Assembly (NCBI GenBank): GCA_943736015.1
Contig: OX031060.1
Location: forward strand, 9,809,501 to 9,873,500
Direction: 5' to 3'
Length of the DNA stretch: 64,000 bases
DNA from: Tridacna crocea
Lineage: Eukaryota > Mollusca > Bivalvia > Cardiida > Cardiidae
The first letter of the stretch is position 1. Each line of letters begins with the position of its first letter. The notes below the pieces were generated by a model. That model searched no databases. It was not told the DNA's origin and saw only the letters and a list, made by a program, of their open reading frames with translations. Both the position numbers and the translations under genes were made by a program. Below, in pieces: positions 6,969 through 54,414 of this stretch.

Positions 6969-7084
6969 TACATGGGATCTCTAAATAGATATAAATAACT
7001 CTGGATACATTTATGGAGTGCCACCAGAAGATATACAAAGTAAAGTAAGGTTCCTGTGCTATTTTTGACGACTTTTATATAGTG

Positions 7085-8311
7085 ATGGCGATTTATAAAG
7101 TTTTAAAAAAGGTAGCGTTTGCCTCCATGTTTCTCATCCTGATTTTCAGTTTGCTACAGTATTATTGGATGAATAAGGGATCATCCAGACTAACTTCATG
7201 GAGTAGGACAAAGTACGGCATGGCCGCAAACAAAACATCTTTTCAAGATTTCCAATTTTTCAACACATCCTTTGCCAAACTTTGGAAAGTCGTAGACCGT
7301 TTATGGGTGAGACATAATTTGTCTGACTTTATTTTTCGGAGGCCTTCATTTGCAGACGGACACAGTCTAATCTTATGGAACAAAAACGACGAAAACAAGG
7401 AATTTATGGAAGCTCAGCCGATGAAGGATTATTTCACGGAAGTTCTATTTCTGCGCAATGGTACCTATGGCACAGATAAATTTTGTGGCTATAAAGGAGC
7501 TAAAGATTGGATTACTCAAGCAAAGACGGAAAAGATAAAGAACTGGTACCCGGTTTTAGTTCCGCTACTGAGTCGTGACGGATTTTCGTTTCAGCATTTC
7601 ACTGATGGTACCCTGCATCAAATTGTACAGATACTGCCTCTCATACAAAATAAAACCGTTAAATTGTTAATGGAAAGGCCACGTGACTCAATTCTGTATG
7701 ATTATCTGAAAAGATTAGGTATATCAAAGGATCAGTTAGTATTTTGGCATCAGCAAGAGCAATATGGGGCAGATTTGATGATACACTCGTGTATCCGAGA
7801 TAGACTTCACCCAACATTGTGGCGAGAAGCCCGTCGTCTTTTAGGTGTCCCAAACTGGCTCAGCGTTCCACACAAACAGGCTTATGTTGTTATAGTAACA
7901 CGAGATGGATGCTTCAATTGTGCAAGACACATTTTGAACTGGAAGGAAGTTATTACAATGTTAGAAAACCGTTACGGAAATGACGTCATAAAAGTGTTCA
8001 AAGGTCCCCAGACGCTTGATGCAAGCTTGGAAATATTCGGAAACTCTCGCATGATTCTAGGTCCTCATGGCGGCGGGTTGTATAATATGAATTTCGCGCC
8101 ACAAGGAACAACTGTGATAGAATTCATGCCAACCAAAGAGGATGGTAACACTGATATACCAGGTCACCAGATTTTCTGGAAAGTTGCCAACGTTTTGTAT
8201 CATGACTACTGGAGGGTGTGCTTGCCGCCTGGTAAACAGAAGGATATGACAGTGGATATAAAGATTTTATCTACTTTACTTGAAACAGTAGATGGAAAAA
8301 GAAAGCTGTAA
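7085..8311 (+). CDS. GT61/DUF563-type glycosyltransferase, paralogue A
   Basis: A 408-residue predicted type II membrane protein. It has a short basic N-terminus, a membrane anchor at about residues 9-27, then a lumenal catalytic region with several N-glycosylation sequons (for example NTS, NLS, NGT). Residues 326-334 read GPHGGGLYN, followed by VIEFMP at about 344-349. This is the GT61 signature region (the H-G-x-G-L motif of the EOGT and plant xylosyltransferase families), so transfer of a sugar in the ER or Golgi is expected; donor and acceptor cannot be told. The ATG at 7085 is chosen because it begins the anchor; the codon before it is GTG. A TATATAG just upstream could be an acceptor site, so a non-coding 5' exon is possible. 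AATAAA lies at 8358. The coding region has no intron and is visibly homologous, flank included, to the gene at 52617-53864. Confidence 0.9.
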   Translation: MAIYKVLKKVAFASMFLILIFSLLQYYWMNKGSSRLTSWSRTKYGMAANKTSFQDFQFFNTSFAKLWKVVDRLWVRHNLSDFIFRRPSFADGHSLILWNKNDENKEFMEAQPMKDYFTEVLFLRNGTYGTDKFCGYKGAKDWITQAKTEKIKNWYPVLVPLLSRDGFSFQHFTDGTLHQIVQILPLIQNKTVKLLMERPRDSILYDYLKRLGISKDQLVFWHQQEQYGADLMIHSCIRDRLHPTLWREARRLLGVPNWLSVPHKQAYVVIVTRDGCFNCARHILNWKEVITMLENRYGNDVIKVFKGPQTLDASLEIFGNSRMILGPHGGGLYNMNFAPQGTTVIEFMPTKEDGNTDIPGHQIFWKVANVLYHDYWRVCLPPGKQKDMTVDIKILSTLLETVDGKRKL

Positions 8312-8357
8312 CTCTTTCAGCTCAAACTGTATATACTCTACGTTTTTGGACGGCTGA

Positions 8358-8363
8358 AATAAA
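8358..8363 (+). promoter_or_regulatory. Polyadenylation signal AATAAA
   Basis: Canonical hexamer 47 bp after the stop codon of paralogue A and before the transposon boundary at 8402. Confidence 0.6.
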
Positions 8364-8470
8364 TACACAGAACCTCTGACAGATTTCTATTGGTCAGTAC
8401 ACACACTGGAGAGACCTTACGAACTTGCTTCTGGTCAACGTTACTGCCCCTGTCAATTTTACGTGCCCGT

Positions 8471-8516
8471 TCGAGTAAAAAAAATGGCTGCGCCCACAAG
8501 ATTACACAAGGTAAGC
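8471..8516 (+). other. Inward ATG and splice donor in the left terminal repeat
   Basis: Inside the terminal repeat an ATG opens the nine codons MAAPTRLHK, followed directly by GTAAGC, a good splice donor. The opposite terminal repeat keeps the same structure (MAAPTKLHK then GTAAGC), reading inward on the minus strand at about 13979-13940. It looks like a first coding exon carried in each end. Confidence 0.5.
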
Positions 8517-9224
8517 AGAAAAACATACTTCTATAACAACCAAATGAGTAGATGTGCTGTAGATGGTTGTCGCACGGAATGTCTGGGATGTTAGTGCATA
8601 TTTCTGTATTGTTCCTTTGTGGTTTGTTATTTGTTAAAGACGTTTAATCCAACAAACTTCCGTCAGCGACTGCAATTTCTGAATAATCAACACACGGAAG
8701 TCAGCATAAATCTTTTTTTAAACATACAAACACAACAATCTGAAGTTTGTGTTGTGTCAAGTGAATCACATATGATTTATTCACCACAGTTGAAAACAAA
8801 AAACTGTACTACATCCATTAAAAAACACTTTTCTCTCAATTTTTGTAGGCAACGCTCCACGCTCCTGAACACAATAAAACGATCCAGTTCCTGAATTGAA
8901 ACAGAGAACTATACCATAATGTGATTGTGTACGAGTTTAATGATTTTTTCCCTTTTTTTAATCAATATGTATAATTGTATACTTGTCCATCTCTCGGGTT
9001 TTCTTTCCGTCAAGTTTATTGTCCTTTTGATGATTTTGAAATAAAAATGCCATGATATAGACAAGGGAATTTGACATTCTATAACCAAAATAAATGAGAA
9101 AATATGGGAAAAAAATCTCCCCTATATAATATAAACACAAGGAATGCAACGTCTCCATTGCAAGCGACAGCACAAGACAGCCTTTCCCACCCAAAATCAC
9201 CCACAAAACAAACATTGATCATAA

Positions 9225-9330
9225 TTTCCTCAGTAGACACCTTTTCGATGGATAGAAATTGTCAACAAAAAAAAATGTGATACATGACGGATATTTTCGG
9301 TTAAAAGGTGTCTACTGAGGAATCGCCGAA
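9225..9330. repeat. Hairpin with CTCAGTAGACACCTTTT arms
   Basis: CTCAGTAGACACCTTTT near 9230 pairs with AAAAGGTGTCTACTGAG near 9305, with about 60 bp between. Lies within the 8402-14057 element. Confidence 0.75.
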
Positions 9331-9649
9331 TGTCGCAGGTACATTTTTGTGTTTTCTATCGCTAGGCTAACAGTGATCGGTAAAGAATTTATTTCAATGA
9401 GACAATGTCTCCTGTTTTTGAAAACCAATGGGACATTTTCAAAAGTAATGAGACATTTAAATCTTCAGATGAGACGTTATAAAGATTTCAAGTAAATCAC
9501 TTTATTCTGTTTTATCATTTTAGCACATGAATAATCAATACTCTTCATTTTTCCATATACAAAAAAAAAAAAAAACAATCACACATATTTAAAGCATTTG
9601 CAGACGACGACTTTCACCCCCCCCCCCCAACCTGTAAAACATAAAGCAA

Positions 9650-10385
9650 CATTTTTTCACTCATGAACCAGGAAATTTAGCTTCCAATTATTGTTTTATT
9701 CAGAGATTTGTGTAAATTCATTGTGTTTAAATTCATTATTAAAGGTGAGAAGATAGTTTGAAGTCCCCCTGATCGGACGATGCCATGCTGCTCATTGTAG
9801 TGTCATGGGTTTTCACGCTTTTTTGGCGATCTACTTTTTCGTGACAATTATTTTTTGGAGAAGTATTGCTACATGATTTGACATCATCCAGTCAGTTAAA
9901 ATAGCAAGTAACTTAAAAATCTGTCACTTTACACTGGATAAGAGGAAAAACACCTTTGTTACTCTGTCATAAATGACTCGCCAGCTTCATTACCATCCTT
10001 CTGCTATAGATCTATAATTTCATTTCATAAAACAACATTTTTTTTTTCACTCATGAACGGAATTTAGCTTTTACTTATTGCTTTATTCAGAGATTTGTGT
10101 AAATTCACTGTATAAATTCATTATTACTAATGAGAAGATAGTTTGAAGTCCCCCTGATCGGACGAGGCCAAGCTGCTCATTGTATTGTCATGGGTTTTCA
10201 CGCTTTTTTGGCGATCTATTTTTTCGTGACAATTAATATTTGGAGAAGTATTGCTACATGATTTGACATCATCCAGTCAGTTTAAGTAGCAAATAAATTA
10301 AAAAATCTGTCACTTTACACTAGATAAGAGGAGTAGCACCTTTGTTACTCTGTCATAAATGACTCGACAGCCTCATTATCATCCG
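9650..10385 (+). repeat. Direct duplication, two units about 388 bp apart
   Basis: TTCACTCATGAAC through CATAAATGACTCG appears at 9656-9993 and again at 10046-10383 with few differences. Each unit is about 340 bp. Non-coding. Confidence 0.9.
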
Positions 10386-11126
10386 CGTGTCCTTCGCATT
10401 TTATACTGATCGTGTTTAGCCCAATTTTTCTGCAGGATGAACGCAAGCTAGATTTTATGAAGCTCTGGACGATAATTTCATGCGTCAGATATTTTCCACT
10501 GTCAAAGACAGATCATTTCAAATTTCCAAGTCTCAAAACCCGGACTCAGGGATCAAATGAGAAGCGTAACGAGTTGTTAGGGTTTGTCAAATAATCCATG
10601 CACAAAAATTTCTTTCTCATTTTTCCGGCCAATTTTGATGTTTGTTATCTACTGTTCAATCGAAGATTGTGATAAATGATAGTCACAAAACCAAGAATTC
10701 AAATTTAGGCACCAAGCAAGTTCAAGAATCGACTACAATCGATTCTGGGTTTTCTCAATCGATTATCGGAATCGGAAGCCAAAACCAAATGACTTTCGAC
10801 TATAGTCGATCGTCTGCCCACCACTAAGTGATAGATACAACGACTTCCTGCAATGAGCAGTTTAATTTATGGCTCTGTTCCGATGATTTTAATCACAATA
10901 TCTCGGATATAAAGTCTCATTTTATCAAAGTATTATCGAGTAACATTCCCGAATACCTATGTTAAAAGTAGATTCTAACGCATACAATCAATAATAATAT
11001 TCACAAAATACGAGAATACCTAACTTCACTTTTCTTTTGTTTTAGTTTTAGAAAGATTTGCAAAAAATATAGGCGCAACTTCCGTATTCCTATGATACAG
11101 TTGGGCGCATTTCTAGGATTGTGAAT
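10386..11126. other. No gene recognised
   Basis: Interior of the large transposon. TTTTTCTGCAG at about 10425-10435 resembles an acceptor followed by an open frame of about 50 codons with no recognisable domain. I do not call it a gene. Confidence 0.3.
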
Positions 11127-11177
11127 GAGACAATCGAGACGTTGCAGTCCTTGTGTTTACATTATATAGGGGAGATA

Positions 11178-12826
11178 TTTATGCCCCCCTTTCGAAGAAA
11201 TGGGGGTATATTGCTTTGCACTTGTCGGTCGGTCCGTCGGTCCGTCGGTCCGTAGACCAAGTTTGTCCGGAGCATAACTCAAAAACTATTTAAGGTATCA
11301 TCTTGAAACTTCATAGGTGGATAGATCTCATTAAGGAGAAGTGCAGTGCACAAGAACCATAACTCTGCCCATCATATTTTTGGAGTTATTGCCCTTTGTT
11401 GATTTTCATAGTTAATTTTTGTCCGGAGCATAACTCAAGAACTATTTCAGGTATCATCTTGAAACTACATAGGTGGATAGATCTCATTAAGGAGAAGTGC
11501 AGTGCACAATAACAACAACTGTGTTCATCATATTTTTGGAGTTATTGCCCTTTGTTGATTTTCATACTTAATTTTTGTCCGGAGCATAACTCAAAAACTA
11601 TTTCAGGTATCATCTTGAAATTACATAGGTTGATAGATCTCATTAAGGAGAAGTGCAGTGTACAAGAACCATAACTCTGCCCTCAAAAAGTATTTTAGGT
11701 ATCACCTTGAAACTTCATAGGTGGATAAATCTCATTAAGGAGAAGTGCAGTGCACAAGTACCATAACTCTGCCCATCATATTTTTGGAGTTATTGCCCTT
11801 TGTTGATTTTCATATTTAATTTTTGTCCGTAGCATAACTCTAAAAGTATTTCAGGTATCACCTTGAAACCTTATATGTGAAAAGATCTTATTAAGGAGAA
11901 GTGCAGTGCACAAGAACCATAACTCTGCCTATCATATTTTTGGAGTTATTGCTCTTTGTTGATTTTCATAGTTAATTTTTGTCCAGAGCATAACTCAAAA
12001 AGTATTTCAGGTATCATCTTGAAACTACATAGGTGGATAGATCTCATTAAGGAGAAGTGCAGTGCACAAGAACAACAACTCTGCCCATCATATTTATGGA
12101 GTTATTGCCCTTTGTTGATTTTCATACTTAATTTTTGTCCGGAGCATAACTCTAAAAGTGTTTCAGGTATTATCCTAAAACCTCATAGGTGGATAGATTA
12201 TACTAAGGAGAAGTGCAGTGCGCAAGTACCATAACTCTGCCCATCATATTTTTGGAGTTATTGCCCTTTGTTGATTTTCATAGTTAATTTTTGTCTGGAG
12301 CATAACTCAAAAAGTATTTCAGGTATCACCTTGAAACCTTATAGGTGGATTAACCTTATTAAGGAGAAGTGCAGTGCACAAGAACCATAACTCTGCCCAT
12401 TATATTTTTGGAGCTTTTGCCCTTTGTTGATTTTCATACTTAATTTTTGTCCAGAGCATAACTCAAAAGGTTTTTCAGGTATCATCTTGAAACCATATAT
12501 GTGGATAGATCTTATTCAGGAGAAGTGCATTGCACAAGAACCATAACTCTGCCCATTATATTTTTGCAATTACTGCCCTTTGTTGATTTTCATACTTATT
12601 TTTTTTCCGGAGCATAACTCAAAAATAATGTGAGGTAAAATCATGAAACTTTAAAAGTTGATAGTTCACTTAAATGGGAAGTACAGTGCCCAAGAATTGT
12701 TAATTTATCATTAATAATTTTTGAGTAATTACCCTTTGTTCGTTTTTACATTTTGAACGTAAGAGTTTATAATCACATTGGATGCCATTAGGGGGGCATA
12801 CATGTTTTACAAACATCTCTTGTTTT
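11178..12826 (+). mobile_element. Helitron-like element with a tandem core of about 156 bp
   Basis: A short 5' part with the hairpin GCCCCCCTTTCG / GAAATGGGGGT and a GTCGGTCCGTCGGTCC tract is followed by about ten tandem units of about 156 bp (landmark GTCCGGAGCATAACTCAAAA). The 3' end is GGGGGGCATACATG, a GTTTTACAAAC hairpin, then CTCTTG and poly-T. The inverted match of its flanks to 9065-9165 gives an empty site and shows no target duplication, as for Helitron/Helentron insertion. This is the known bivalve pearl/BIV160-type plan. Non-autonomous. Confidence 0.8.
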
Positions 12827-13109
12827 TTTCATATTTGATCATTTATTTTGGTTATAGAATGTCAAATTCCTGTGATATTGATGAAGAGCTTGATGACAGA
12901 CAGTATCATGCAAAGAATATTTATCATAACTATCGTGCAGAAGATCCATAACTATTATAAATACCATCTTCGATATCATCATCAAGAGACTCGTTTTCGT
13001 GAATATGATTCAATAATAAGGATCATCAACGAACAACCATTCATATGCCTTGTAAGCGGCACACCTAAAAGTAACTAGTAATATCTAATACTATGCTTTA
13101 AATATTGAT

Positions 13110-13220
13110 CAGCGATACTCTGTGAAAAGAGGGCTTAATGCATCTGCGGAAAGAATCTGCACAGGTCAGCTTGTGCATTCCGTGCAGGCGGAAGTGGACC
13201 AAGACTTTTCGCTTTAGGTC
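13110..13220. mobile_element. Fragment of a CTGTGAAAAGAGGGC MITE
   Basis: Resembles 25525-25622, 57825-57915 and 50005-50090 (landmarks: a TCTGTGAAAAG-like end, GCGCAGGCTGA, CTTTTCGC). Fragmentary and related in style to the GTAAAGTGTCGTC family. Confidence 0.5.
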
Positions 13221-13759
13221 AATTTTCTGTATGTTCAAGGACCAGTCTACCTAATGATACCTCTTTCTGTCTCTCTCTCCTTTTCATGATAGGTGTCTGA
13301 TTCTGCCAGCTTAATAAAATTGGGGATAGAAAAAGGAAACCCGAGATCGCCTGAATACATGCCCAGTAACATTAGGCCTATTGATAGAAAGAAGAGTTCA
13401 GTGTGTTGTAGAATTGTACTTCCATTCATTTCACGTATTTATTTAAATACACTACGACTGTGACTACGATAATTAATATAGAATCTTGACCAACTTAATA
13501 ACAAAATTGTTCACTGTAACACAAATCCATACGCTTACCGTATTTTCAGCTCAGAAGCTGAATCGTTGTATTGACTGCAGGAGCATCTTACGTTGTAATG
13601 TAAAAAATGGCAAAATATCCCTGAATAACTGCAATTTGATTTTTTATCGGTTTATAGTGCTGAGGATAATCACTGTATTGGTCATCTGACACGGCACACA
13701 CTTCAGAATATTGAGTGTACATGTATATGTTTTACAAAGGTTTTTGGAGACTCCAAGAA
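13221..13759. other. No gene recognised
   Basis: Interior of the large transposon; no supported exon. Confidence 0.3.
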
Positions 13760-14116
13760 GTGTTTTTCCAGAAATCGTAGTCTCCGACGGAACTTTGTTG
13801 GATTAAACGTCTTCAACAAACGCTTAGGGCCTAACCACCAAAAGAACTAGAGATTAACGTGCACTGACACCCCAGACATTCCGTGCGACAACCTGCAACT
13901 GCATATCTATTCAATAACATGTTTAAAAAATTATGTTTTTGTGCTTACCTTGTGTAATTTTGTGGGCGCAGCCATGTTTTTTACTCAAGCGGGTACGTAA
14001 AATTGACAGGGGCAGTAACGTTGACCAGGAACAAGTTCGTAAGGTCTCTCCAGTGTGGTACATACAGTAAGATTAACCACAGGGATTTTTGGACCGGAAA
14101 CGAATCTTACTGCATT

Positions 14117-14362
14117 TATAGTGTATATCCCTTATACATGTGTCATAAGATTTTGCAGTTTCATACTACTGTATTAGGTCTAGAGTAATGCTCTATTTCC
14201 TACAATTTGTGATAGAGTATTAGACAATCACAGCTTAGCATTTCCTTGAAGGTGACTTACCTGCATATTTGTTAACCCATTACCACACAATCTCTACTTT
14301 TGACGACCCTGTGAAGAAAGCCTTTAGAAAACATTGTGGGAAAAGGAGAAAATGCTGGTAAT
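14117..14362 (+). repeat. Segment repeated at 15912-16200, ending in a half MITE
   Basis: GAGTAATGCTCTATTTCCTA and the following TAGAGTATTAGACAAT recur at 15983-16024. From 14275 the segment is the left half of a TTAA-type MITE, which stops at its central GCTGGTAA where the minisatellite begins. Confidence 0.7.
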
Positions 14363-15126
14363 GAGTGTATCATGATTAAACAATCTCTGAGAATCACAAG
14401 ATTTGTATTAGTGTGTATCTGCGTGTATCATGATTAAACAATCCCTGAGAATCACAAGATTTGTATTAGTGTTAGTATCTGAGTGTAAACAATCTCTGAG
14501 AATCACAAGATTTGTATTAATGTGTGTATCTGAGTGTATCATGATTCAAAAATCCCTGAGAATCACAAGATTTGTATTAGTGTGTATGTCTGAGTGTAAA
14601 CAATCTCTGAAAATCACAAGATTTGTATTAGTGTGTGAGTCTGAGTGTATCATGATTCAAAAATCCCTGAGAATCACAAGATTTGTATTAGTGTGCGTGT
14701 CTGAGTGTAAAAAATCTCTGAGAATCACAAGATTTGTATTAGTGTGTGTATCTGAGTGTAAACAATCTCTGAAAATCACAAGATTTATATTAGTGTGTGA
14801 GTCTGAGTGTATCATGATTAAAAAATCTCTGAGAATCACAAGATTTGTATTAGTTTGTGTATCTGAGTGTAAACAATCTCTGAGAATCACAAGATTTGTA
14901 TTAGTGTGTGTATCTGAGTGTATCATGATTCAAAAATCTCTGAGAATCACAAGATTTGTATTAGTGTGTGAGTCTGAGTGTATCATGATTCAAAAATCTC
15001 TGAGAATCACAAGATTTGTATTAGTGTGTGTATCTGAGTGTATCATGATTAAAAAATCTCTGAGAATCACAAGATTTGTATTAGTGTGTGTATCTGAGTG
15101 TATCATGATTCAAAAATCTCTGAGAT
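14363..15126 (+). repeat. Minisatellite with 51- and 60-bp units
   Basis: About thirteen units built on AATCACAAGATTTGTATTAG and GTGTGTATCTGAGTGT. Two length variants alternate irregularly, with or without ATCATGATT. Both lengths are multiples of three, so long frames stay open on both strands (about 14430-15191 plus, 14657-14926 minus). I treat these as by-products. The left edge abuts a half MITE and the right edge a second MITE. Confidence 0.9.
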
Positions 15127-15217
15127 TAACCCTTAGGCTGCTAAGCGGACAGCATAGATTAAGAACAGACGGCACAAAACGTGCGGTCTGATCTTGGATC
15201 TACACTGTCCGATAAGA
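15127..15217. mobile_element. GATCAGACTGCAC palindromic MITE, copy a
   Basis: Begins TAACCCTTAGGCTGCTAAGC. The palindromic centre is decayed: AGAACAGACGGCAC / GTGCGGTCTGATCTTGGATC. Ends ACACTGTCCG. Confidence 0.75.
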
Positions 15218-15354
15218 GTATGTTATTTCCCGAAACGTAATCTTGAAACAGTACTATTTTGGTCCTTAGTATCGAAATGAAAACTTTATTTTAGTTATTT
15301 AGCAAAATAAGAGTTAATTTCATGAGACAGGTATCTTAATTATTATTATACTGC

Positions 15355-15900
15355 AAAGAAATGTCACGTGACCTGATTGGATAATATGCCCTAAACATAT
15401 ATATTATGTACACTGGCAAAACCCACGCAAAAGCAGTTTCACTTTCGCGAGCCCCGTATACATGGCTACACTATCAACGCAACATTCAAAATGGCGGCGT
15501 CGATCAAAATTAACATCAAGAGTATGCGCCAAACTGCACGTTTGAGCAAGCATTACCAAGGTTTCAGTGACGTCATTTCACAGCACTTGACGTCAAGTTT
15601 CATTGAATTGAGGCACTCAAAAGGGGAAATCTAATTCGTCACCATACTCATTTTTTCAAATAAAAAAGAACAGGTAAAAAATTCCGTTAACAAATGTTGG
15701 AATGGTAAAACTTTGCAGTATAATAAATTCGCTGTACGGTCAGGCGGCAAGGGGCTTGTAAAGTTGTTCACGATAAATCATGTCGCCCTGAGCCGAAGGC
15801 TGTTCACGGCTGTGGTAAATCATGATTCACTACAGCCGTAAACAAGTTTCCAAGTTCCCTGCCACCTGACCGTACAACTAATATTGTGTGTACAGGCCCT
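15355..15900 (+). repeat. Dispersed repeat with AAAATGGCGGCGTCGATC block, copy 1
   Basis: Homologous to 32270-32775 (same orientation) and 60135-60665 (inverted). Each has an ATGGCGGCGTCGATC start-like block near 15490, TGACGTCA-type sites, then a palindrome of about 150 bp from GTACGGTCAGGCGGC to GCCACCTGACCGTAC (15735-15887). Frames after the ATG in this copy and the inverted one read alike for about 20 codons. No transposase seen. Confidence 0.75.
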
Positions 15901-15911
15901 TACATGTACAT

Positions 15912-16340
15912 CCAGTGTACATCCCTAATACATGATTGTATTTTAAAATCTTCTGGACTTTCATGAAACTGTACTGGTTTTAGAGCAATGCTCTATTTCC
16001 TAAGATCTTTGTTAGAGTATTAGACAATAACAGGTTAGCATTCCCTAGAAGGTGAGTTACCTGTAGATTTGTTAGTGCTTTAAAATTTTGACGTCAGGTA
16101 AATAGTTAACCCTTGACCACACAAACCTTAGTCTTAATGACCTTGAGGAAGAGTCCTATTAAAAACATTGTTGGAAAACGAGAAGATGCTGGTAACCAGC
16201 ATTTTATTCTTTTCTTCACAATGTTTTCTATCATTTTAGATACAAATTCCATTATGTTAGCAACATTTAATTTGTCGTTGCAAATGTTTTCAATTTGGAT
16301 AAGTATAAAGGTTCGTTTTCAGGTAAATAGTAAAGGGTAC
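15912..16340 (+). mobile_element. Second copy of the 14117 segment plus TTAA-type MITE copy 5
   Basis: 15912-16100 matches 14117-14275. 16106-16340 is a diverged complete MITE starting TTAACCCTTGACCACACAAA with the GATGCTGGTAACCAGCAT centre. Confidence 0.75.
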
Positions 16341-18384: not shown

Positions 18385-21300
18385 TTAAAAGCCTGTTTCA
18401 CATCAGCCTTACGACAGTCGTACGGGAACATAAATCGCAGGACTTCGCGCGGTTTCCGCAAGACTGTCTTACGAATTTGCAACGCCGTAGACGTCGCAAT
18501 TAAGCTGGTTTTTCAACATGCTCATTTTCCTAGCGATTTCTTTGCGATTTTTTGAGTTTGCACAGCAACTGTACGGTTGCCACAAGGGAGCCATACGGCT
18601 AACTTGAGACCATAGCACATCAATCATACGGTTTTATAACTTGCGTTTGTCCTGCGAAGGCCGAAAGACGATCGCACTAACATCTTGCGGCTACCTTGCG
18701 AATGCCTTGCGTTTGGTGAAAGTCTGTCTGAAGACTACTGCGGAACGTAGGAACAACGTAGAGATTCGCACAGCTGCCTCGCAAATGCTTTGCGAAAAGT
18801 TAGCGTCATCCGTCCTCTTTTAAAAAGTTTGTATGTCTTGTTCGTCATCAGTCGCTATCGAGATTTCAGGACGAGAAGGTCATGCAGAAACGAAGATCTC
18901 AGAATGGAAAGGGATAGGTTCCGATTGCTGAACCCCCATTGAACCCGAGACATTCAAGGTACCACCAACCCAGGATTTAGATGAAGAAAGCACGTGCTTG
19001 TACAAGAATGACAAAATGCCCTTAGCATAAAATATTGTCGTCCCGGTCTTTATCTGCGAGTATCCTGTCCATTGTTTCAATATGCAACCTATGTGCCGGG
19101 GTAGCATTGTGAATATATATATCCAATCGGACAAGAGGAGATAATTCCTCCTCCTTATGGCGATCGCACGAACACCGTACAGCTGTCTTGCAAAATCGTG
19201 CTTGCCATGCGGTGGTCGTAAGAAACTTTGAAAATTCTTACGGCAGTCTTGCGGGTGCCTTGAGAATTTGTGCAGCAGCCTTAAGCTAACCGCATGACAG
19301 CCGTGCGAACTCGTCGCTTTGTTTTTAGCTCACCTTAGCACAAAGTGCTACAGGTGAGCTATTGTGATCGCCCTATGTCCGTCGTCCGTAGTCTGTCGTC
19401 CGTCGTCCGTCAACAATTTCTTTAAAAATCTTCTCCTCCTAAATACTGGGTTAATCTTGGCAGGAATGTTCCTTGGGTGAAGCTCTACCAAAATTGTTCA
19501 AAGAATTTAATTCCACCCATAACTCTGGTTGCCATGGCAACAAAAAAAACAAAAAAAAAAAACACGAAATCTTTGAAAATCTTCTTCTCTGAAACTATAA
19601 GGCGTAGAGCTTTGATATTTGGTATGTAGTATCTCTTAATGGACCTCTATCAAGTTTATTCAAATCATGCCCCTAGGGTCAAAACTGGCCCAGCCCCGGG
19701 GGATAACGAGTTTGAGCCTAGGAACAAAGGAGGAAAACTTTAAAAATCTTCTCCTCTGAAACTTGAAGGCGTAGAGCTTTGATATTTGGTATGTAGCATC
19801 TCCTAGTTGACCTCTACCAAGTTTGTTCAAATTATATCCCTGGGGTCAAAACTGGCTCCATCCCAGGGGTCACAAGTTTGAGCAAAGGAATGAAGAAGGA
19901 AAAATTTAAAAATCTTCTCCTCTGAAACTTGAAGGCGTAGAGCTTTGACATTTAGTATGTGACATCTCCTAGTGGACCTCTGCCAAGTTTGTTCAAATTA
20001 TGTCCCTCGGGTCAAAACTGGCCCCACCCCGGGGGTCACAAGTTTGAGCATAGGAACAAAGAAGGAAAACTTTAAAAATCTTCTCCTCTGAAACTTGAAG
20101 GCGTAGAGCTTTGATATTTGGTATGTAGCATCTCCTAGTTGACCTCTACCAAGTTTGTTCAAATTATATCCCTGGGGTCAAAACTGGCTCCATCCCAGGG
20201 GTCACAAGTTTGAGCAAAGGAACAAAGAAGGAAAAATTAAAAAATCTTCTCCTCTGAAACTTGAAAGCGTAGAGCTTTGACATTTAGTATGTGACATCTC
20301 CTAGTGGACCTCTACCAAGTTTGTTCAAAATGTGCCCCTGGGGTCAAAACTGGCCCCACCCCGGGGGTCACAAGTTTGAGCATAGGAACAAAGAAGGAAA
20401 ACTTTAAAAATCTTCTCCTCTGAAACTAGAAAGCGTAGAGCTTTGATATTTGGTCTGTTGGATCTCCTAGTGGACCGCCACCAATTTTATTCAAATGATG
20501 TCCCTGGGGTCAAAACTGGCCCCACCCCGGGGGTCACTAGTTTGAGCATAGGAACAAAGGAGGAAAACTTTTAAACTCTTCTTCTCTGAAAATAGATGGC
20601 GTAGAGTTTTGATATTTGGTATGTGGCATCTCCTAGCGGACCTCTACCCAGTGTCTTTAAATCATGCCCGTGGGATCAAAACTGGCCCCGCCTCGGGGGT
20701 CTCAAGTTTGAACATAGGAACAAAGAAAGAAAATTTTCAAATTCTTCTTCTCTAAAACTAGAAGGCATAGAGTTATGATATTTGGCATGTAGCAGTGAAT
20801 CTCTACCAAGTTTGTTCCTATTATGCCCTTGGGGTCAAAACTGGCCCTGCCCCGGTGTGTGTGTGTGTCACAGGTTCGACCATAGCAACAAAGAAGGAAA
20901 ACTTTGGAAATCTTCTCTGAAACTTGAAGGTGCAGAGCTTTGGCATTTGGTATGCAGAATCTTCTAGTGGACCTCTACCAAGTTTGGTAATATGATGTCC
21001 CTGGCGTCAAAACTGGCCATGCAGGTTGGAACATATGAACAAAGAAGGAAAATTTTGAATTTTATTTCCTCTTAAACGGGAAGGTGTAGACCTTTGATAT
21101 TTGGGATGTAGCATGTTTGAGTGGACCTCTATCAAGTTCGTTCCAAGGGTGCTGCTTTGGTTAAAACTGACCCAGCCCGGGGACCACAAGTTCGAACATA
21201 GGACAAAGAAGGAAAATTTAACATTCTTCTTTGAAACTGGCAGGTGTATAGCTTTGATATTTGATTGCCCTATGTCCGGCGTCTGTCGCCCATCAACAAT

Positions 21301-23045: not shown

Positions 23046-23646
23046 ACAAAAGTTGTGTAAGACGCCATAAGGGAGTAAAAGAAGTCTGAAAAAATGTAAT
23101 CTGCTAAAGTGTACAGAAAGTCTGGAAAAAATGTCATCTGCTAGTATACAGAAGTCTGGAAAAAATGTCACCTGCTAAAGTATACAGAAGTCTGGGGAAA
23201 AATGTCATCTGCTAAAGTATACAGAAGTCTGGAAAAAAATGTTATCTGCTAAAGTATACAGAAGTCTGGGGGAAAATGTCATCTGCTAAAGTATACAGAA
23301 GTCGGGGGGAAATGTCATCTGCTAAAGTATACAGAAGCCTGGGGGAAAATGTCATCTGTTAAAGTATACAGAAGCCTGGAGGAAAATGTCGTCTGCTAAA
23401 GTATACAGAAGCCTGGGGAAAAATGTCATCTGCTAAAGTATACAGAAGCCTGGGGAAAATGTCGTCTGCTAAAGTATACAGAAGCCTGGAAAAAATGTCA
23501 TCTGCTAAAGAGTGAAAGGAATACTGGGGAAAATAATCACATAAAGAATTCAAGTAGTATGAAAAACGGATACGAAAAAGTCATGTGCTAAAGACTTACA
23601 GGAGCCTGGAGAAAAAGTCATGTGCTAAAGAGTTAATGTCATGGTT

Positions 23647-25380: not shown

Positions 25381-25524
25381 TTTAATGCATCTCAAAAATA
25401 TTCATGGTAACGTGCATGTCATCACACGAAAATGGGTCCATAAATTCGTTTTTGTCACACAATTGACTGAATCATGAGATAAACTGGTCCTTTTACATGC
25501 AGAAAATTAACCCCAGGAAAAAGT

Positions 25525-25622
25525 TTCGGCCCAAGTCAGCCTGTGCGAACTGCGCAGGCTGAGCTTGGTCGATGCTTTTCGCAGTTGCATGAAGCCCCCT
25601 TTTCACAGAGCATGGTTCAAAT
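25525..25622. mobile_element. Small MITE fragment, GCGCAGGCTGAGCTTGG
   Basis: CAGCCTGTGCGAACTGCGCA, GGCTGAGCTTGGTCGATGC, then TTTTCACAGAGCATGG. Same family as 57825-57915 and 13110-13220. Confidence 0.6.
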
Positions 25623-46200: not shown

Positions 46201-46407
46201 GTTTAGGAGTTCAATGAATGAATGAATGTTGTTTTATGGCGCATCGACAGCTTTGGTCATTTAGCGCGCATATCTGTGTTACTTAGGAGTTCGGAATCCA
46301 TACTATATGTGTCATAGTTGGTGAGTTGGGAACGGCAACGTACGTTATGTAATACAGCGGGTTCTTGGTGTTTAGTCACGTGATAATATACGCAATTTAT
46401 CTTTAAT

Positions 46408-46423
46408 TTTTCGTATCTTTCAG
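46408..46423 (+). promoter_or_regulatory. Splice acceptor ahead of the receptor coding exon
   Basis: TTTTTCGTATCTTTCAG is a good polypyrimidine tract plus AG. It implies at least one upstream non-coding exon and a 37-nt leader on the coding exon. Confidence 0.5.
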
Positions 46424-46460
46424 ATCGCCAGACAACATAGTACAGAAAGTTTTGACGAAG

Positions 46461-48635
46461 ATGCATTTCCAGATTCTTTTCTTTCTTCTGTTGGTTCACG
46501 CATGCGCAGCTGCGTATGACGACTACTCATCTATGCAAAAGCCACGCTGTAAAGGTAAATTCAAGTCTTGCGCCGAGGACCTGTGTTGTTGTACAAGAGA
46601 TGAAGCATATTGTAACGGGCATGGCAAGAAGCTTGGATACATTCCTAAACTACCACGGAGTATATCACGTTTTGCATTTATGAAAAACTTTCTCCCCCAG
46701 CTATCGAAAGAGACCTTCAAGAATATAAGTGAACTGAGACTGACCTCACTAGCAATTGTGAACAATAAAGTCCTTAACGTAACAACAGATGCATTCACAG
46801 ATTTTCAAAATCTGTCCAAACTTGACATTAGTATCAATCCGAATATAAATAAAACTGAGCTGTCTTTGTCCTTTGCTAGCCTCCAGAAATCGAGTATTGA
46901 AACGCTGACTTTAGAAAACATTGGATTGGTGAGTTGGATTCCAACTGGATTTTTGAAATGGCTCGACGGATCCAGCATCACTAGCCTCGATCTGGATAAC
47001 AATCACTTAACATCTGTCAATATTAGCGATTTTCAGTACCTACGGTATTTGAAGCATTTGCACCTAGTCAACAATACTCTAAGGGAATTCACTATAGGTA
47101 TAGGACATCCATCGTTGACGAGGTTGATGTTGACACACAATGAGTTTGGCCGGGATCCGCCTTCGTTTTGTCCGTCAGAAGGCAGCGTATTTCCCAGTTT
47201 AAAACGCATATATATTGAACAAAATTTCATATGTAATATAGTACCTCAAACATGGAAGTGTCTTTCAAACTTAACCTGGCTTGCAATCGGAGGGAACGTT
47301 ATACGGCATATCCCAAATAACGCTATATCTGACCTGACCTCGTTAACTGTGTTCCGGGTAAATGGAATGCAAACCGTTTCCATAAAGCCAGATAAATTAG
47401 CCTTTAACAGTAGCAGTCTTCAACAACTCGTGTTCGATTCAAACAACATTATATACAAGAAAACGCGGTCACAGACCCAAGTTTTTCAGGCTTGTAAGCA
47501 GCTGACCACTCTGGACATCAGCAAAAATAATTTAGTGCATTTAAGTGACGCTGATATCACCGAGATGCTTGCCCCGCTGTCACAATTAGAGAAACTATAC
47601 ATGGTCAGCACCCGCTTACGATCTATACCTGAAACTCTGCTCGAGCATTTCCCAAATCTAGAGCTCCTTAACGTAGATGGAAATGGTATTCGTCACCTCG
47701 GCAAATCTCTACTTGGACCGTCTAATTTGAAACATCTAAGTATACAAGGTAACAATATCAGAGTGCTTAAGCCTGAATCGTTTCCTTTATTGATCAGGAA
47801 AACTCTTAAAATTCTAAACTTGGCGGATAACCCATTTGCCTGCAGCTGTGAAAATCTCTGGTTTCGAAACTGGGTTGGGAAACACGGAAACCTCACAGGT
47901 ACAAACATTTCTCTGACCAGTTGGCCCAAGCGCTATCAATGTCGTTCTCCAAGGGAATGGGAAGGAAAATATTTTAAATCCTTTCAACCAACAGAGGCAT
48001 CTTGTCGACCGGATCATCTTGTATTGTATATTTGTGCTACTCTAGGATCAGTTCTCCTCATTGTCGCAATTTCCATACCAGTTTGCGTTAGATACAGGTG
48101 GCATATACAGTATATAGTATATCAAATGAAAAAGACCCGAAAAAGTGAAGAGGCAACCCCTTTGCTGGCCGGCAGTGACAATAGACTTCCGTCACAGCCC
48201 TATACATACGTTATATACCATGACAATGACATGGACTTTGTGCATCAAGGTCTTCGCAAGTTGGTTGAAGAGGACATGGATTGTAAACTCTATATATGGC
48301 ACAGAGATGCTGCTCTTGGCTCAATGGCGAAAATCATGTTCAATGCAATAGACGCAAGTTCTCATGTCCTGGCTATCGTTTCGAGCACTTTTGTCGCAGA
48401 TGGCTGGTGTGAATTTCAGTTGGATATTGGACTAGGAAAAAAGAATGAAAGTAGAAAAGACTGTTTAACTTTACTTCTGATGGAGGACTTGGATCTGAGT
48501 TTACTTCGAAGATCGTGGTGTGTGACCCTGGTAAAGAATGCAACAGTGCATTGGTCCTCTGATCCAGAATCGATTCAGTCGAGACTGTGTGCGGATCAGT
48601 TGAGATCACGATTTCAGAGAAGTCAAAATGATTGA
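46461..48635 (+). CDS. Toll-like receptor with divergent TIR domain, single coding exon
   Basis: A 724-residue receptor. Signal peptide at about 1-18. A cysteine-rich N-terminal cap (C30, C37, C42-C44, C51). About a dozen leucine-rich repeats at about 85-455. A C-terminal LRR cap (NPFACSCENLW ... YQCRSP ... C515). Membrane segment about 519-543. A cytoplasmic TIR domain about 581-715. The TIR keeps a WCEFQL motif at 649-654 and an IDASSHVLAIVSSTF stretch, but the BB-loop reads HRDAALGS (614-621), where the usual RDxxPG proline is leucine, and box 1 is YTYVIYHDND. This is the single-cysteine-cluster type. It is expected to sense microbial ligands at the cell surface or endosome; altered adaptor binding is inference. 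The ATG at 46461 is chosen because it starts the signal peptide; an in-frame TTG lies 9 bp upstream. Confidence 0.92.
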   Translation: MHFQILFFLLLVHACAAAYDDYSSMQKPRCKGKFKSCAEDLCCCTRDEAYCNGHGKKLGYIPKLPRSISRFAFMKNFLPQLSKETFKNISELRLTSLAIVNNKVLNVTTDAFTDFQNLSKLDISINPNINKTELSLSFASLQKSSIETLTLENIGLVSWIPTGFLKWLDGSSITSLDLDNNHLTSVNISDFQYLRYLKHLHLVNNTLREFTIGIGHPSLTRLMLTHNEFGRDPPSFCPSEGSVFPSLKRIYIEQNFICNIVPQTWKCLSNLTWLAIGGNVIRHIPNNAISDLTSLTVFRVNGMQTVSIKPDKLAFNSSSLQQLVFDSNNIIYKKTRSQTQVFQACKQLTTLDISKNNLVHLSDADITEMLAPLSQLEKLYMVSTRLRSIPETLLEHFPNLELLNVDGNGIRHLGKSLLGPSNLKHLSIQGNNIRVLKPESFPLLIRKTLKILNLADNPFACSCENLWFRNWVGKHGNLTGTNISLTSWPKRYQCRSPREWEGKYFKSFQPTEASCRPDHLVLYICATLGSVLLIVAISIPVCVRYRWHIQYIVYQMKKTRKSEEATPLLAGSDNRLPSQPYTYVIYHDNDMDFVHQGLRKLVEEDMDCKLYIWHRDAALGSMAKIMFNAIDASSHVLAIVSSTFVADGWCEFQLDIGLGKKNESRKDCLTLLLMEDLDLSLLRRSWCVTLVKNATVHWSSDPESIQSRLCADQLRSRFQRSQND

Positions 48636-52616: not shown

Positions 52617-53864
52617 CTAGGCCATTCTTTTTGCGTCTACTTTATCAAGTAGAGCAGACAAAATATTTATATCAGCAATCATATTCTTATTTTCACCAGG
52701 CGGTAAGCACACCCTCCAGTAGTCATGAAATAAAACATTGGCAACTTTCCAGAAAATCTGGTGGCCGGGTATATCGGTTTGACCGTCCTCTTTGGTTGGC
52801 ATGAATTCTATCACAGCTGTTCCCTGTGGCGCGAAATTTATATTATACAGACCGCCGCCGTGAGGACCTAGAATAATCCGAGAGTTTCCAAATATTTCTA
52901 AGCTTGCATCAAGCGTCTGGGGACCTTTGAACACTTTTATGACGTCATTTCCGTACCGGTTTTCTAACATCGTAATAATTTCCTTCCAGTTCAGTATGCG
53001 TCGTCCACAGTTTACACAACCATCCCTTGTAAGTATGACGATATAGGCATTCTTGTATGGAATATTTAGAGATTTTGGAACACCTAAAAGACGACGGGCT
53101 TCTCGCCACAATGTTGGGTGAAGTGGTTCCTGAATACACGAGTGTATCATCAAGTCGGCTCCGTATTGAAATTCTGCAAGCCTAAATACTAACTGATCAC
53201 TAGATATGCGTAATTTTTTAAGTATATCATACAGAATTGAATCACGTGGTCTACGCATTAACAATTTTACGGTTCTATTCTGTATCAGGGGCAGTATTTG
53301 TACGATACGATGCAGGGTACCATCAGTGAAATGCTGAAACGTATTTCCATCGCGGTTCAGTAGTGGAACTAAAATCGGGTACCAGTTCTTGTGAATAAAA
53401 GATGGAAACCAATTCATTATCTTCCCTTCATGTGCTTGAGTAATCCAGTCTTTAGCTCCTTTATAGCCACAAAATTTATCGACATCAATGGTACCGTTGC
53501 GAAGAAAAAACACTTCCGTGAAATAATCCTTTATCGGCTGAGCTTTCATGTAGCCCTGGTTCTCGCCATTTTTGTACCATAACTCACGACTGCTTTCGTC
53601 TGCAAATGATGGTTCCCGAAAAGTGAAGTCCGAATAATTATATCTTACCCACAAGCGGTCTTTGATTTGTGAAAGTTGTGGAAAGGAGACGTTGACAAAC
53701 TGGAAACCTCGATAAGAATTTTCGTCACTTATCATACCGTAATACGAGTTCCTGAGATGGTATGACCCGTAAGTTATCCCATAATTGCGCAATAGCTCGA
53801 GACCTAGGTGAAGGACAACGAAGGTAGTTAGAAACAAGGCTCCTTTTTCCACAGCCTTTTTCAT
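52617..53864 (-). CDS. GT61/DUF563-type glycosyltransferase, paralogue B
   Basis: A 415-residue type II membrane protein. Hydrophobic anchor at about 8-25, lumenal catalytic region, sequons NVS, NYS and NGT, GPHGGGLYN at 333-341 and VIEFMP at 350-355. It aligns end to end with paralogue A, with long identical runs such as KVFKGPQTLDASLEIFGNSR. It differs by an insertion near 150-159: NWFPSFIHKNWYP where A has only KNWYP, which looks like a partial in-frame duplication of the NW(F/Y)P step. The sequence before the ATG also aligns with that of A (shared AAAGTAAG and ATTTTTTGCGACG / ATTTTTGACGAC), so the duplication included 5' flank. Substrate unknown; ER/Golgi location inferred from topology. 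The coding region is uninterrupted. Confidence 0.9.
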   Translation of the reverse strand: MKKAVEKGALFLTTFVVLHLGLELLRNYGITYGSYHLRNSYYGMISDENSYRGFQFVNVSFPQLSQIKDRLWVRYNYSDFTFREPSFADESSRELWYKNGENQGYMKAQPIKDYFTEVFFLRNGTIDVDKFCGYKGAKDWITQAHEGKIMNWFPSFIHKNWYPILVPLLNRDGNTFQHFTDGTLHRIVQILPLIQNRTVKLLMRRPRDSILYDILKKLRISSDQLVFRLAEFQYGADLMIHSCIQEPLHPTLWREARRLLGVPKSLNIPYKNAYIVILTRDGCVNCGRRILNWKEIITMLENRYGNDVIKVFKGPQTLDASLEIFGNSRIILGPHGGGLYNINFAPQGTAVIEFMPTKEDGQTDIPGHQIFWKVANVLFHDYWRVCLPPGENKNMIADINILSALLDKVDAKRMA

Positions 53865-54414
53865 TGCAATCGTGAACGTCGCAAAAAATAAGTATATCTT
53901 ACTTTAAATGTTTATTTAACCGTCAAGCTATGTTTATAAATCGTTTTTCATGTATTTCTGTAATGGGTGTCATTTAAGAGACAAATGTCCAATACGCTTC
54001 TTGTCATTTTCACGTATCTTGTTTGAGAATTCTTTCAGAAGTGCCCGTTTACACAAGAAGACACTCGGTTTGAACATTATTTTCGCAATATTTACCAATT
54101 CACACCTGAAATAAAGTAAGTTTTTTCCTTCCTAGCCGAAATAAATCACCAAAAGCTGTATTATATCAGAAAGACATTCATCACATGACACCCTTTTGCA
54201 CACAGACGTGAAATAACAACATCATTTGATTCCCTCCAATAAGACGAGTACTCGATGTGGCGAGTGGTCGAAATTGCCAGTGTTCTACATCTTTAATAGT
54301 TTCAGTTTTGATTGGGCGTCAAGCTTGTACCCTGAAAATAAACAGTGGTAAATATTGACCGAAATATGAATATCAAAGTGACCACAAAATGAATTATGCA
54401 CGCGAGTCGATATG
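53865..54414. other. 5' flank of paralogue B, otherwise unrecognised
   Basis: 53865-53910 is homologous to the leader of paralogue A. The CGCCACGTCC minisatellite seen before A is absent here. Nothing else supported. Confidence 0.4.

Follow-up and report, generated by a model that had tools for sequence, protein, structure and literature searches.

Within a 64,000-nucleotide stretch of the Tridacna crocea genome (contig OX031060.1; the whole stretch is referred to here as the window) lies a 5.66-kb element that carries in each of its terminal inverted repeats what looks like the inward-directed beginning of a gene, and the question is what kind of mobile element would be built in this way. 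Very probably, it is one copy of a family of non-autonomous cut-and-paste DNA transposons, usually about 3.9 kb long, that are moved in trans. A transposase encoded elsewhere would bind the terminal repeats, cut at CAC, and insert the element with a 5-bp stagger; judged from the terminus and the duplication length, this enzyme can be assigned with moderate confidence to the CACTA-Mirage-Chapaev-Transib (CMCT) clade, with Transib as its nearest member.

The element occupies positions 8402–14057 of the window, with the terminus CACACTGG at 8402 and CCAGTGTG at 14057, and GTACA is present directly outside both termini (Table 1). The chance of a 5-bp match beside fixed ends is about 0.0013, and the status of GTACA as a true target-site duplication is settled by the sister copies, since exact 5-bp duplications of differing sequence (GTACA, AAGAT, ATTGA, GTGTA, and others) flank 16 of the 20 copies in which both ends were read.

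The search for these copies covered the window's own assembly (1.05 Gb, 31 contigs). With the left 299 bp as a query, all 40 scored places, the own locus included, match at 96–100% (the best 40 of 700 loose candidates), and with the outer 120 bp as a query all 40 scored places match as well (the best 40 of 654 candidates); from the numbers of loose candidates, the genome likely holds hundreds of family ends. Thirty left-end loci, with the window's own (L001) among them, were read over 3.3 kb, and 20 others over 10 kb; 19 of the 20 longer stretches hold both ends and, together with the window, provide the 20 two-ended copies. All of them are bounded by CACACTGG and CCAGTGTG, and their 200-bp flanks consist of differing DNA, save for shared repeats in some. 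When 50 ends are tallied (30 left, of which 28 are distinct, and 20 right, including the two of the window), the octamer CACACTGG is unaltered in 48. All 30 left-end loci agree in the sequence immediately inward of the repeat, and 29 of them also in the deeper interior, the exception (L008, identical with L035) being broken by an insertion. In this twenty-first copy the left end and insertions are present, with the right end lying beyond the 10 kb read; past the break, a reverse-strand frame (L035 7639–8949) matches RNase H (E 2e-10) and, more weakly, reverse transcriptase.

The family is a dispersed repeat with many copies in this genome. The first-pass annotation of this DNA had proposed a mobile element that has CACACTGG as its boundary and GTACA exactly outside both ends, naming similarity that runs past the ends and a lack of 5-bp duplications as signs to the contrary; the dispersed copies, which have the same boundaries and duplications, bear out the proposal, and neither sign was found when they were examined. 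Fifteen of the 19 other two-ended copies measure 3.8–4.4 kb and the remaining four 2,671, 3,384, 4,929, and 6,901 bp, so that the window copy, at 5.66 kb, exceeds the usual length, for the most part through an insertion of 1.64 kb of tandem repeats. Divergence from the majority sequence ranges from 1.06 to 6.08% among the two-ended copies; for the window copy it is 3.60%, and 16 of the 19 others are closer.

The terminal inverted repeats, previously put at about 290 bp, do exist but are longer (Table 1), and are approximately 79% alike overall. In their outer 120 bp the two repeats of the window match at 112 positions, whereas the inner part varies between about 50 and 80% per 15-base window, except for two conserved blocks. 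The majority left and right ends of the family differ at only two of the first 125 positions, and at none within the start-to-donor stretch described below, whereas beyond this point they are 55–90% alike per 20 bases. A coding reading of the inner blocks (KTFNPT..FR..LRFL) was rejected, with no Pfam match above cut-off and a periodicity P of 0.053.

No transposase is found in any copy read, as had been noted for the window copy at first sight, although no Transib model was among the searches. Neither the six frames of the typical copy (L048) nor the nine window frames inside the element match a Pfam family above cut-off, and no stop-to-stop frame longer than 138 amino acids occurs in the 20 two-ended copies. 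A search of positions 8300–14200 against Rfam returned nothing at the gathering threshold. The exact 23-base end, two 18-base inner blocks, and the start plus donor have no match in a collection of viral contigs, and the exact 20-base end has none in a collection of genome contigs, which says little about outside relatives, since these collections are viral and prokaryotic. A literature search with the end octamer and "transposon" gave no paper on such an element among the titles listed.

The exon-like start in each repeat

An inward ATG with nine codons (MAAPT(R/K)LHK) and a GTAAGC donor had been reported at both ends, and the claim holds at both (Table 1). A pattern defined after the sites were known (ATGG with a purine at −3, an open stretch of up to ~60 nt, and [AC]AGGTAAG[TC]) occurs at these two sites only on both strands of the 64 kb, compared with a single match in 40 simulated 64-kb strands of the same dinucleotide make-up (0.025 each). 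In the tally of 50 ends, the ATG is kept in 49, MAAPTRLHK is exact in 37, the donor GT is kept in 48, and AAGGTAAGC is exact in 44. In the typical copy, these two donors are the only matches to MAG/GTRAG on either strand, and the codon AAG begins at position 107 counted from each end. As features of the sequence, the exon-like starts do exist and are retained in most copies, and a preserved module of promoter plus first exon would be expected to look like this combination of start and donor.

We tentatively propose that ATG, nine codons, and GTAAGC may be the kept first exon of a gene of the autonomous ancestor, and that inward transcripts from both ends may be spliced at GTAAGC; going by the sequence motifs, a transcript would start inward from either end and splice off at this donor. 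If so, the family would be a natural example of a repeat from whose many sites spliced transcripts could run into the host DNA. A literature search for a first exon in the terminal repeat of a transposon gave nothing on the subject, as judged by title. A splice acceptor considered before window position 13293 (VSDSASL...) was dropped: the stretch is identifiable in 16 copies, and TAG stands at this place in two of them (the window and L037).

It is also possible, if somewhat doubtful, that ATGGCTGCGCC is a YY1/TISU-like promoter or initiator kept for transcription or for transposase binding, with the codons and the donor unused as an exon; a YY1/TISU-like initiator may likewise be seen in ATGGCTGC. 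The string ATGGC(G/T)GC resembles the TISU/YY1 motif (TISU is treated in PMC2518114), and the entire outer 125 bp, not the codons alone, are alike at both ends, but an initiator leaves unexplained why a strong donor directly follows the open frame at both ends, no other donor of this kind being present in the typical copy.

It is unlikely that the exon-like start arose by chance and was then passed on as the element was copied. All copies would go back to one master or a few, so that its sharing between them provides no independent support. The simulated expectation of 0.025 per 64-kb strand, equivalent to about 5e-5 per 120 bp for a pattern that was chosen post hoc, speaks against chance, as does the retention of the start at both majority ends although their inner parts have diverged.

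Superfamily placement

According to PMC12730594, most CMCT elements have CA..TG termini, and their duplications measure 2–5 bp; both features are present in the family, and they are necessary, not sufficient, for membership. Duplications of 5 bp are described for Transib and RAG-like transposons in PMC7204232. Within the family, position 5 of the end is C in all 50 ends; the deviation at this position, already remarked upon at first reading, is therefore a family trait and not decay. Compared with the Transib terminus CACWRTGG, the family end agrees at seven of eight positions. Autonomous Transibs are described as typically present at one or few copies (PMC4411706), which the missing autonomous partner would fit.

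Several observations weigh against parts of the explanation given so far, namely a non-autonomous family with CMCT-type ends and a kept first exon. The copies were picked by best likeness to the left repeat of the window, and the conservation figures from this biased sample are therefore inflated. The octamer is not exact in two of the 50 ends (CACTCTGG and CACACCGG), two of the 20 two-ended copies have duplications of 6 bp, and two others have no exact duplication (AATAT/AATAA in L031, only GT in L041). A stop falls within the nine codons of one right end among the 50 tallied, the exon-like segment is conserved among copies no better than the neighbouring outer repeat, and a three-base rhythm, not significant in one inner stretch (P 0.053), is absent over the whole inner repeat. 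As neither a transposase nor an autonomous copy was found, the superfamily is judged from the ends and the duplication length only, the family may belong within or possibly outside the CMCT clade, and hAT families with 5-bp duplications (hAT5) exist (PMC12730594).

Membership in hAT5, or in another superfamily that occasionally leaves 5-bp duplications, nevertheless appears quite unlikely for this non-autonomous element. The usual hAT ends are CAGNG or TAGNG, compared with CACAC here, and the long, near-identical outer repeat is unlike those of most hATs. A match to a Tc3-type transposase helix-turn-helix in frame 8595–8894 of the left repeat, which might be counted in favour of another superfamily, is very weak (13.4 bits where the cut-off is 27.2; E 0.081) and most likely due to chance.

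A derivative of a mollusc RAG-like (RAG1L–RAG2L) transposon is highly improbable: the CAC start and the 5-bp duplications fit, and an oyster is reported to contain non-autonomous RAG-like elements, but the consensus for protostome RAG-like ends, CACTWMCAAACKTYKBB with AAA at 8–10 (all as given in PMC7204232), is not matched by CACACTGGAGAGACC, present in 44 of the 50 ends, and AAA at 8–10 is found in none of the six variant ends. The Pfam RAG1 model (PF12940) has no match in the genome, a weak negative because none of 14 control genomes gave a match either. A RAG1 fragment compared with solved structures has a Transib entry (6pqn) among its matches, at E 0.011. No stretch resembling the nonamer of recombination signal sequences is present, with a best agreement of 4/9 at offsets 7–44. 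The element had been described in the first-pass annotation as a gutted relative of Transib and RAG-like transposons; "gutted" stands for all copies read, whereas the kinship is at most putative, given the unmatched RAG-like end consensus and the lack of a transposase.

A Transib family in this genome would be of some note, because a survey of mollusc genomes identified only one Transib element by profile (PMC10294476). The family also shows clearly where in this genome a Transib-like or other CMCT transposase might be sought, namely in any gene between CACACTGGAGAGACC ends.

Interior and surroundings of the window copy

The typical copy is 3,921 bp long and contains a 95-bp internal inverted repeat, as well as a palindrome at element positions 830–1297. 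A reading of the inner arms as a nested transposon was dropped because the sister copies show them to be part of the family. As a transcript, the palindrome (locus L048 8501–8975) is predicted to form an extended hairpin (−260 kcal/mol, z −26) and could yield double-stranded RNA. Its arms carry TGACGTCA and GGCCTCC motifs. In the window copy most of this palindrome has been lost, an internal stretch is duplicated, and the 1.64-kb insertion is present, the site of which is uninterrupted in a sister copy (L036), a clean empty site. Helentron-type elements that bear tandem repeats are described from oyster (PMC7492417), and this insertion may be of that type. Further inside the element, a 144-bp stretch (13115–13258) resembles positions 25471–25613 at 76% and is probably a short dispersed repeat.

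Table 1. Features of the window copy (positions in the window).
Feature	Positions	Strand	Remarks
Left target-site duplication, GTACA	8397–8401		Sequence and sister copies
Left terminal inverted repeat, 358 bp	8402–8759	+	Outer ~125 bp near-identical at both ends, inner part diverged
Exon-like start, left: ATG and nine codons MAAPTRLHK (8484–8510), donor GTAAGC (8511–8516)	8484–8516	+	
Inner conserved block 1, left repeat	8567–8596	+	Repeat comparison
Inner conserved block 2, left repeat	8642–8671	+	Strongest at 8642–8656
Internal inverted repeat, left arm	9066–9160	+	Element positions 664–758 in typical copy
Remnant of family palindrome, mostly deleted in window copy	9226–9322		20-bp perfect arms remain
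Internal tandem duplication, ~360–380 bp	9640–10384	+	Copies ~9640–9998 and 10026–10384
Secondary insertion, 1.64 kb, 156-bp tandem units	11181–12822		Borders ambiguous by a few T
Internal inverted repeat, right arm	12823–12870	-	Split by insertion, other part 11131–11180
Right terminal inverted repeat, 371 bp	13687–14057	-	Repeat comparison
Exon-like start, right: ATG and nine codons MAAPTKLHK (13975–13949), donor GTAAGC (13948–13943)	13943–13975	-	
Right target-site duplication, GTACA	14058–14062		Sequence and sister copies

The element is inserted 38 bp beyond an AATAAA (8358–8363), downstream of a glycosyltransferase-61 frame that ends at 8311, and this position places the element near the likely 3' end of the gene. 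The window contains two such frames in opposite orientation (7049–8311 on the forward strand and 52617–53903 on the reverse strand), both uninterrupted, of ~420 amino acids each, and sharing ~80% identity across 1.1 kb at the DNA level. An empty site at the paralogue was considered and rejected: the joined flanks (7001–8401 and 14063–16000) gave no spanning match in the window, and the paralogue (52625–53725) aligns only to about 8303, just before the stop codon. Elsewhere in the window, positions 46407–48635 (forward strand) hold a leucine-rich-repeat frame without interruptions, in which a C-terminal match to the TIR domain falls just short of the Pfam cut-off (26.6 versus 28 bits); in its layout the frame resembles a Toll-like receptor. 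A ~90-bp repeat, partly inverted as well, occurs at 14272–14361 and elsewhere, with about 18 near-full places in the 64 kb at 74–93% in addition to partial matches, and tandem arrays are present at 14362–15125 (~60-bp units), 19566–21263 (~166-bp units), and 23080–23510 (~37-bp units).

Comparison with known systems

MuDR-type elements have promoters in their terminal repeats, and inward transcription could likewise start at both ends of the family described here, but they belong to another superfamily and make 9-bp duplications. Chapaev shares CAC..GTG ends with the family, as do EnSpm/CACTA and other CMCT elements, and differs in duplications of 4 bp as opposed to 5 bp; those of EnSpm are 3 bp (PMC12730594). 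Protostome RAG-like transposons have the CAC start and the 5-bp duplications in common with the family, the ends of which lack their consensus and the AAA at positions 8–10.

Transib comes closest, with the same CAC start, TGG at positions 6–8, and 5-bp duplications. The differences are the C at position 5 and the length of the repeats, about 360 bp in the family, whereas a TransibSU has repeats of 13 bp, described as "analogous to the known Transibs" (PMC4411706). We can speculate, as a distinctly improbable extension, that the autonomous parent was a Transib-side element in which each repeat carried a promoter, start codon, first exon, and donor, with two convergent genes sharing the leader MAAPT(R/K)LHK. 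Were this true, the two genes, for example a transposase and a partner, would parallel the convergent RAG1–RAG2 pair, and an autonomous copy that proved to be a Transib with two genes sharing such an end-encoded first exon would bear on the origin of that pair.

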